From assembly GCF_002837145.1 (NCBI RefSeq), contig NZ_NWMV01000003.1, positions 1-64,000 on the forward strand: 64,000 nucleotides of DNA, read 5' to 3'. Numbering within the stretch: position 1 is the stretch's first letter; the number at the start of each line of letters is the position of its first letter. Shown here one piece after another: positions 20,813 through 23,467 of this stretch. The position numbers and the translations under genes were made by a program. The notes under the pieces are model-generated. The model was not told the DNA's origin and made no database searches. It saw nothing but the letters and a program-made list of their open reading frames with translations. Source of the DNA: Macromonas nakdongensis. Its GTDB lineage: Bacteria; Pseudomonadota; Gammaproteobacteria; Burkholderiales; Burkholderiaceae_C.

Positions 20813-21409
20813 TCAGACCCAGCCCAGGCTGCCCAGCAGGGCGCCCGCGCCCAGCAACCAGAGCAGGTGCCAGCGGGTTTTCCACACCGCCAAGGTGGTG
20901 AAGGCGCCCAGCGCCCACAGCGGCCAGTCCTGCGCGGGCTCGTCGTGGGCGGCGATCAGCAGCCAGCCGGTGGCCACCAGCAGCGCAATCACGATCGGTG
21001 CCAGGCCCTGCTTGAACGCCTTGACGCTGCGCCAGTCCCGGCGCTGGTGGGCCCAGCGGCCGGCGACGTAGGCCAGGGTGGACGACGGAATCAGGATCGC
21101 CGTCAGGCTGACGGCCACCCCCAGCAAGCCCAGTGGCCAGCTGGCCGGCCCCAGTGCCGCACCGCCGGCGGCGTTCACGCCGACCGACCAGCCCATCAAG
21201 GCCACGAACAGCACGTTCGGGCCGGGCGCGGCCTGCGCCAGGGCGATCGCGCTGGTGAACTGCGCGTCGGTCAGCCAGGCCTGCTGCGTCACCAGGAAGC
21301 GGTGCATGTCGGGCGCGGTGGTGATGGCCCCACCCACCGCCAGCAGCGACAGCAGCAGAAAGTGCAGAAACAGTTCGATCCAGTCGGCGGCGTGCAGGGT
21401 CAGGGCCAC
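20813..21409 (-). CDS. chrA: chromate transporter, short-chain CHR protein (second of a pair)
   Basis: 198 residues, mostly membrane segments. The CHR motif is visible in LLSLLAVGGAIT near the N-terminus and AQAAPGPNVLFVALMGW at about 60-75. Short single-domain CHR proteins work in pairs that together match the two halves of full-length ChrA, an antiporter-like chromate exporter. It follows the first half with a 13-base gap. Whether it exports chromate here is an inference. Confidence 0.85.
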   Translation of the reverse strand: MALTLHAADWIELFLHFLLLSLLAVGGAITTAPDMHRFLVTQQAWLTDAQFTSAIALAQAAPGPNVLFVALMGWSVGVNAAGGAALGPASWPLGLLGVAVSLTAILIPSSTLAYVAGRWAHQRRDWRSVKAFKQGLAPIVIALLVATGWLLIAAHDEPAQDWPLWALGAFTTLAVWKTRWHLLWLLGAGALLGSLGWV

Positions 21410-21422
21410 GGTGGCGTCTCCT

Positions 21423-21995
21423 TCAGGCGTCGCGCGCGGGCAGTCGGCCCAGGCAGTGCCAGGCCCAGCCCCAGGCCAGACCGCCCAGGCCGATCAGCAC
21501 CCACACCAACGGCAGCCGCAGCCAGGCGATGGCGACAAAGGCCGCCAGGGCCAGTCCGGTGCAGGCGAGTCGGCCCATGGGGTTGTTGCCCAGCGCGCCG
21601 ATCAGTTTCAGGCCGGTGCCGGTGACCAGGCCCGCCGCCACCGCCCCCATGCCGCGCAGCGCGCCTTGTACCACCCCGGAATCGGCCACGCTGGCAAAGG
21701 CCACGGCCAGCAACAGCACCACCACCAGCGGCAGGGCCAGCATGCCGGCCAGGGCCGCCAGGGCGCCGCTCCAGCCGAAGTAGCGCCCGCCGATCATCAG
21801 CGACAGGTTGACCACGTTCGGCCCCGGCAGAATCTGCGCCACGGCCCATTCCTCGACAAACTGCTCGCGTGTCATCCAGCGCTTGCGCTCCACCAGCTCG
21901 CGTTGCACCACGGCCAGCACCCCGCCAAAGCCCTGCAGGGCCAGCCAGGTGAAGGACCAGAACAAGTCGGCGCGCGAGCGCGGTTGCCCGGTCAC
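21423..21995 (-). CDS. chrA: chromate transporter, short-chain CHR protein (first of a pair)
   Basis: 190 residues with the N-terminal CHR signature [19 protein letters not shown] and [19 protein letters not shown], then about five membrane segments. It is the partner of the CHR gene at 20813-21409. The GTG start at 21995 overlaps the stop of the upstream SDR gene by four bases (GTGA), so its translation is likely coupled to that gene. Confidence 0.87.
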
Positions 21996-22735
21996 ACCGT
22001 CATGCCGCCGGCCACTTCCAGCACGGTGCCGTTGATGTAACTGGCCTCGTCGCTGGCCAGGAAGGCGTAGGCGTTGGCAATCTCTTCGGGCCGGCCCAGG
22101 CGGCGCAGCGGCACTTTGTGTGCCATTTCAGCGATCACCTTCTCGGGGATGGTGTTCAAAATGGGCGTGCCGATGAAGCCCGGCGCCACCGCGTTCACCC
22201 GCACGCCCTTGGGGCCCAGCTCCCGGCTCCAGGTTTTGGTGAAGCCGATCACGCCGAACTTGGTGGCGGCGTAGTTGGTCTGGCCGAAGTTGCCGTAAAT
22301 GCCGACCACGCTGGAGGCGTTCAGGATCACGCCGCTGCCTTGCTCGACCATGGTGTCGGCCACCGCCTGCGCACAGTGGAAGACGCCGCGCAGGTTGACG
22401 TCGATCACGCGGTCGAACTGTTCCAGCGTCATCTTCTGCAGCCGCGCGTCCTGGGTGATGCCGGCGTTGTTCACCAGCACGTCGATGCGGCCGAAGCGCT
22501 CCTTCACCTGGGCCACCACCGCGTCCACCATGGCGCGCTGGGTCACGTCCATGACGCAGCCGATGGCGGTGGCGCCCAGGGCCTGGCAGCGGGCGACCAC
22601 GGCATCCACCGCGGCCTGGCGCACGTCGCAGACGACGACGATGGCGCCCTCCTGGGCGAATTTCAGCGCGGTGGCCTCGCCGATGCCCTGGCCTGCGCCG
22701 GTGACGATGCTGACTTTGTTCTCGAGTCTTTTCAT
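21992..22735 (-). CDS. SDR-family oxidoreductase (FabG / acetoacetyl-CoA reductase-like)
   Basis: 247-residue classical short-chain dehydrogenase. The nucleotide-binding motif TGAGQGIG is at residues 12-19, NNAG at 89-92, and the catalytic Ser142, Tyr155 and Lys159 are in place (NASSVVG, YAATK). The segment [11 protein letters not shown] resembles both FabG and PhaB. Being divergent from phaR it could be a PHB-pathway acetoacetyl-CoA reductase, but FabG-type or other substrates cannot be ruled out. The ATG at 22735 gives the family N-terminus; it is the first gene of the SDR-chrA-chrA operon. Confidence 0.88.
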
Positions 22736-22828
22736 GATGCGAATGCGATGAGGGTGGAACGTGCGTGGCATCTTAAGCCGTTGGCGTGCGTCGGTCGCGC
22801 CCCGGCGTTGCCCGGGTGACAGGGACTG

Positions 22829-22843
22829 TGCTGCTTTGCAGCA
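22829..22843. promoter_or_regulatory. putative PhaR operator, TGCTGC-TTT-GCAGCA
   Basis: Perfect inverted repeat with six-base arms and three-base spacer in the divergent gap between the SDR gene (start 22735) and phaR (start 22955). It contains CTGCTTTGCAG, which fits the CTGC-N3-GCAG element reported for PhaR in Paracoccus and Rhodobacter. It sits about 40 bases upstream of the likely phaR -10. Autoregulation or control of the SDR operon is an inference. Confidence 0.6.
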
Positions 22844-22884
22844 ACGCCAGCCGCCCCGGGGTGTCCGTGGGGTCATTTCCTTTT

Positions 22885-22890
22885 TACAAT
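22885..22890 (+). promoter_or_regulatory. -10-like element of phaR
   Basis: TACAAT at 22885-22890 following a run of five T, 64 bases before the chosen phaR GTG. If this is the -10, the ATG at 22889 lies within the promoter and cannot be the start, which supports the GTG at 22955. Confidence 0.5.
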
Positions 22891-22954
22891 GGCCACACCC
22901 ACACCACCGGTCTGCGGGCGCAAGCCCGACGGGCTTTTCACAGGAGCGAGATCA

Positions 22955-23467
22955 GTGCAAACGAAAGAGGCCGACCCCACGGCCACCGCCGGCAAGCCCC
23001 TGCGCGTCATCAAAAAGTACCCGAACCGCCGGCTCTACGACACCGACACCTCGTCCTACATCACCCTGGCCGAGGTCAAGGCCCTGGTCATGCGGGCCGA
23101 GCCCTTCGTGGTGCGCGACGCCAAGACCAACGAGGACCTGACCCGCAGCATCCTGTTGCAGATCATCCTGGAAGAGGAGACCGCGGGGGTGCCCCTGTTC
23201 TCCGAGAACATGCTGGCCAACATGATCCGCTTTTACGGCCACTCCATGCAGGACTTCATGGGCTCCTACCTGGACAAGAACCTGCAGATCTTCATGGAAA
23301 TGCAGCAGAAAATGACCGACCAGGCCAAGGGGCTGACGCCCGAACTCTGGCAGCAGTTCATGAACGCGCAGACGCCCTTGATGATGGGCAACTACTTCAG
23401 CCAGTCGCAGAATGCTTTCACCCAGATGCAGGAGCAGATGCTGAGCGCCTTTGGCGTCAAGCGCTGA
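22955..23467 (+). CDS. phaR: polyhydroxyalkanoate synthesis repressor PhaR
   Basis: 170 residues. The N-terminal PHB/PHA accumulation regulator DNA-binding domain is clear (RVIKKYPNRRLYDTDTSSYI at about residues 16-35), followed by the PHB-binding region with Met/Gln-rich amphipathic helices (FMEMQQKMTDQ, FTQMQEQML). PhaR senses PHA granules and represses phasin genes and itself. The GTG at 22955 was chosen because AGGAG lies nine bases upstream, and an upstream ATG at 22889 overlaps the likely -10. A matching operator lies at 22829-22843. Confidence 0.93.
   Translation: MQTKEADPTATAGKPLRVIKKYPNRRLYDTDTSSYITLAEVKALVMRAEPFVVRDAKTNEDLTRSILLQIILEEETAGVPLFSENMLANMIRFYGHSMQDFMGSYLDKNLQIFMEMQQKMTDQAKGLTPELWQQFMNAQTPLMMGNYFSQSQNAFTQMQEQMLSAFGVKR

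Follow-up and report, generated by a model that had tools for sequence, protein, structure and literature searches.

Does the inverted repeat between the PHA synthesis repressor gene phaR and a divergent SDR gene act as an operator for PhaR and, if so, which of its neighbors would it serve? The repeat, TGCTGCTTTGCAGCA, occupies exactly positions 22829-22843 of the window (the whole 64-kb stretch of DNA analyzed here), as a perfect 6+6 dyad with a 3-base centre (TGCTGC-TTT-GCAGCA, no strand assigned). The initial annotation took it to be a PhaR-type operator of the CTGC-N3-GCAG form, suggesting autoregulation and possibly PhaR control of the SDR and two chromate transporter genes. The dyad and its fit to the short form are borne out by exact sequence match; the best explanation of its function, held here with moderate confidence, is that it is a low-affinity PhaR operator weakly tuning phaR.

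The phaR-SDR Gap and Its Flanking Genes

The repeat lies in a 219-bp gap between the phaR GTG (22955) and the ATG of the divergent SDR (22735). The phaR gene (22955-23467, + strand; PF07879, PF05233, TIGR01848) has an AGGAG-type ribosome site upstream of its GTG start, and its TIGR01848 score of 149.6 bits (cut-off 109) indicates that a cognate PhaR is encoded. The SDR (21992-22735, - strand) is a FabG-type 3-oxoacyl reductase (TIGR01830, 299.6 bits; cut-off 297.75) and scores 235 bits for AcAcCoA_reduct, under the cut-off of 302; its candidacy as the main acetoacetyl-CoA reductase is weakened by another gene of the genome (C140), near one phaC, that exceeds the PhaB cut-off with 377.5 bits. 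Two chromate transporter family proteins (PF02417, Chromate_transp) are encoded on the same strand: chrA1 (21423-21995, - strand), with a 4-bp overlap between its start and the SDR stop, and chrA2 (20813-21409, - strand), 13 bp downstream of chrA1, so that an SDR-chrA1-chrA2 operon is likely. The gene identities given in the initial annotation thus stand.

A consensus scan found no full sigma-70 promoter, and the putative -10 boxes on both sides were placed by alignment only: TACAAT for phaR (22885-22890, + strand), 41 bp downstream of the repeat and part of a TACAATG invariant across 7 aligned phaR-SDR gaps, and TAAGAT for the SDR (22770-22775, - strand), 53 bp from the repeat. A terminator or hairpin role for the repeat was set aside, as a terminator scan of 22700-22980 was empty.

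PhaR Boxes at Phasin and Other Genes

The form of the PhaR box in this genome is TGYTGC-RNY-GCARCA. Two boxes lie upstream of each of its two phasin genes (L096 and L136), 58 and 57 bp apart, and one precedes the PHB depolymerase gene phaZ (L131; PF06850). At L096, as we read the sequence, the boxes flank a TTGCAA-17-TATACT promoter, one immediately upstream of it and the other immediately downstream of its -10. Further boxes precede genes for a ParA-like ATPase (L129) and an OsmC-like protein (L134), among other places. Scoring used a palindromic weight matrix derived from 51 phasin sites, by which neither of the main PHA synthesis genes of this genome, phaC (L200; best 2.6 bits) and phaB (L196; best -2.9 bits), has a box.

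The same box is widespread at phasin genes across genera: it is present in 30 of 31 phasin upstreams (51 sites, counted with at most one mismatch to TGYTGCNNNGCARCA), as a pair 57-60 bp apart in 21 of the 31, and the RNY centre is kept by all sites except one (50/51). These 31 upstreams comprise 29 fetched loci and the two genes of this genome, other phasin matches having been left out. The published PhaR consensus sequences TGCRNYGCASMA (PMC6201568), YTKNTGCRNYGCANMAR (PMC12849132), and TG[N]TGC[N]3GCAA (PMC3206438) agree with the box seen here, and the first two sources give TGCRNYGCA, with its central RNY triplet, as the PhaR core.

Some other boxes in the genome are of separate interest. 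The box at the ParA-like ATPase gene (L129:1518-1532, or G000:C110:4017-4031) is strong (32.5 bits) and centred 21 bp before the gene (1546-2310); among 27 orthologue upstreams, this one included, 8 score at least 10 bits and several others have TGCTGCAGTGCACAA-like variants. Through such a box, PHA state might be coupled to the partitioning of granules or DNA. Good boxes also lie ahead of two similar small membrane proteins that have no Pfam match (L088:1501-1515, 23.0 bits; L135:310-324, 24.1 bits).

Rarity and Strength of the Repeat

The short form CTGC-N3-GCAG is by itself unremarkable in the window, where it matches 6 times against 4.6 expected from shuffles. The full 15-mer has no second exact match within the 64 kb, and the repeat, at 10.3 bits, has the top matrix score of the window (runner-up 3.9), rising to 10.7 bits when the phasin sites of this genome are left out of the matrix. 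The 3.06-Mb genome has TGYTGCNNNGCARCA at 25 places, which corresponds to about 0.0018 expected per 219-bp gap; a first-order Markov model similarly gives 0.0013 scores of the 10.3-bit level in a gap of this length. A rough gene caller put 12 of the 25 places between genes; two more (L004 and L135) were judged to be upstream of genes called with too-early starts, leaving 11 inside genes. Ten of the 25 exceed 20 bits, and the 11 judged intragenic reach 12.9 bits. Chance is therefore an improbable source of the repeat in this particular gap, but its score alone cannot separate it from chance matches elsewhere.

The repeat does contain TGC-N3-GCA, the core dyad of the betaproteobacterial type of PhaR operator, and is flanked by G/C. 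Its low score is due to the centre, TTT, which departs from RNY in its first base (T, not R); all 51 phasin sites score 23.5-36.2 bits, a range in which the repeat does not fall. With neither an RNY centre nor a phasin-range score, it is classed as a weak candidate rather than a proven PhaR operator.

Relatives with the Same Gene Order, and phaR Upstreams as a Class

Across 80 phaR loci and the SDR loci of two sets, an adjacent, divergent SDR-phaR pair is present in seven distinct genomes: the window, L019 (= L210), L101, L038 (= L204), L070 (= L202), L064 (= L223), and L061, the equalities being judged from identical upstream sequence. In three of these (the window, L019 and L101) a box occupies the same alignment columns, 41, 40, and 41 bp, respectively, from TACAAT. 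The boxes of L019 (21.4 bits) and L101 (17.0 bits) share with the repeat a Y-N-T centre, with a pyrimidine where the phasin sites have a purine. The box is absent from the other four (L038, L070, L064, and L061), and even within the single genus (g147) that includes L019, L038, and L070, two of the three species lack it. Absence from relatives with the same gene order had been named in the initial annotation as evidence against an operator, and such absence is the case in four of the seven genomes, the window counted. A conserved CAAAGGGTAAWTCC element directly follows the box position in the phaR gaps of L019, L101, L038, and L070, persisting where the box has been lost.

More broadly, 11 of 112 phaR upstreams reach at least 10 bits, against 0.5 expected from shuffles, although L166, among these 11, duplicates the window and the 112 probably include some other species twice; none of 151 control gaps reaches this level. 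In seven of the 11 (L183, L177, L176, L184, L186, L170, and L171) the box is in a different place, 28-52 bp before the phaR start, and nearly all the Hydrogenophaga and Tepidimonas phaR upstreams examined have no box. By sequence comparison, PhaR-type boxes at phaR thus appear enriched as a class, labile in position, and confined to a minority of genomes. Eight of the 112 regions, mostly from Hydrogenophaga (L017, L033, L045, L046, L055, L056, L063, and L072), have TGCAGTGCA[AG] overlapping the phaR GTG start codon; this may represent either a PhaR box at the start codon or a coding constraint.

The SDR-chrA Operon in Other Genomes

The association of chrA1 with the SDR (within 1.5 kb) recurs in 17 of 24 loci of the newer SDR set and 8 of 30 of the earlier one. 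Where no phaR is adjacent, 7 of 48 SDR upstreams reach at least 10 bits, against 0 of 151 control gaps (p 3e-5). These seven came from a first sample of 28 and were diluted by a second, family-wide set (0/20); they divide into 1 of 38 upstreams inside the family of the window and 6 of 10 outside it, for which the control gaps, mostly from the window's family, are a less good match. Among 497 segments elsewhere in the loci, mostly coding, 2 reach 10 bits. In four loci (L019, L101, L100, and L108), 16-19 bp separate the end of the box from an SDR -10 candidate, which puts the box over the expected -35; in the last two, the 1.5 kb examined beside the SDR contains no phaR. The operon is often found downstream of the end of an apparent 3-hydroxyacyl-CoA dehydrogenase gene (L100, L205, L206, L208, and L212; named from sequence), which hints at a possible role in acyl-CoA metabolism.

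Possible Roles of the Repeat

If the repeat is a low-affinity operator tuning phaR, a PhaR multimer would bind both TGC/GCA halves while no polymer is being made, and would leave when PHA granules sequester it; DNA binding in the absence of polymer and sequestration by granules are both described for PhaR (PMC12849132, PMC12542648). We infer not only that PhaR binds here but that it binds weakly and that its binding affects transcription. The repeat would lie upstream of the phaR -35 region, its centre some 61 bp ahead of the start that TACAAT predicts. From there, one bound PhaR would have a weak modulating effect on phaR and would not shut it off, in contrast to the phasin promoters, which, bracketed by two boxes, would be closed. 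Published data on PhaR at its own gene are mixed: in Herbaspirillum, PhbF footprints on its own promoter (at 450 nM, vs. 150 nM for phaP1) and represses it (PMC3206438); binding at phaR is weak in S. meliloti, with slight positive autoregulation (PMC12542648), weak in P. denitrificans (as cited in PMC12542648), and "inefficient" in Bradyrhizobium (PMC6201568); and PMC12542648 argues that negative autoregulation is unlikely to be conserved. By analogy, weak self-control through one weak box would agree with the Herbaspirillum, Bradyrhizobium, and S. meliloti data. The autoregulation first proposed for the repeat is accordingly plausible, if weak at best, and the term PhaR operator can be kept in the sense of a weak one, given the boxes at the phasins and phaZ of this genome and the recurrence in two relatives with the spacing to the phaR -10 preserved.

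Other possibilities, not all mutually exclusive, differ in how well they fit the gap. The least probable supposes that PhaR activates its own gene from a position about 61 bp ahead of the phaR start, a sub-form of the low-affinity operator with opposite sign: the position relative to TACAAT would suit an activator, PhaR activates phaP3 in Ralstonia (where two sites are predicted, about 70 and 200 bp ahead of the phaP3 start; PMC12849132), and the slight effect in S. meliloti is positive, but the phaR start here is a predicted one, and PhbF acts on its own promoter as a repressor. It is also possible, though still improbable, that the repeat mainly serves SDR-chrA1-chrA2, with PhaR repressing the SDR promoter and PHA status setting the levels of the reductase and two chromate-family transporters; this is compatible with a low-affinity phaR operator if one site serves both directions. 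The tight packing of the three genes, the boxes over the expected -35 in four loci, and the high proportion of boxes among out-of-family SDR upstreams (6/10, vs. none in the control gaps) speak for it. Against it, the only plausible SDR -10 in the window is 53 bp away, the distance that is conserved is that from box to phaR -10, boxes are nearly absent at in-family SDRs that lack an adjacent phaR (1/38), and the more distant SDRs, most of them with 63-69 % identity, are possibly different paralogues. Comparison of these upstreams makes PhaR control of the SDR credible elsewhere and doubtful in the window, where the geometry does not fit, and the control of SDR and chrA suggested in the initial annotation is not established; that PhaR directly controls SDR-chrA1-chrA2 in this lineage, the box being kept or regained at the SDR promoter in several lineages regardless of an adjacent phaR, is likewise improbable. 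No report of PhaR control of chromate genes appears, to judge by title, among the matches listed for PhaR and chromate.

A somewhat more serious contender, though unlikely, is that the dyad is a product of chance or decay and is left unbound by the PhaR of this organism. In its favor are the low score and G/C flanks, a centre that departs from RNY, in-gene matches of up to 12.9 bits, and absence from four of the seven same-order genomes. What argues against it is the rarity of such a match in the gap (about 0.001-0.002 expected) and the spacing to the phaR -10 shared with two relatives.

If bound, the repeat would add one case of weak PhaR self-control, a feature of disputed generality. The comparison suggests that sites of this kind are gained, lost, and shifted among related genera, whereas the boxes at phasin genes are stable; this difference between turnover and stability makes the question of PhaR self-control testable by comparison. 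A PhaR link to the SDR and chromate-family transporters would, if true, widen the PhaR regulon; on sequence grounds that extension is possible, and less likely in the window.

Comparison with Known Systems

The repeat is ordinary in kind, a self-control switch of this type being already known. The PhaR/PhbF operator of Herbaspirillum seropedicae, TG[N]TGC[N]3GCAA, has the same half-sites and spacing, precedes the regulator's own gene and has been footprinted (PMC3206438); its position relative to the promoter differs, and the available text of that report describes no divergent SDR-chrA operon. The Rhodobacter sphaeroides site CTGC-N3-GCAG (cited in PMC3206438 and PMC12542648) is fitted exactly, but is short and, as noted above, not rare in the window. 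In S. meliloti, the phaR/phbAB intergenic region likewise contains sub-threshold PhaR-like motifs with weak binding (PMC12542648), although there the neighbor is phbAB rather than SDR-chrA and the phbA promoter is reported as unaffected by phaR. Closest to hand are the phasin promoters of this same genome (L096 and L136), which share the TGYTGC...GCARCA dyad with the repeat: there, two strong RNY-centred boxes bracket the promoter, whereas the phaR gap has one weak box upstream.
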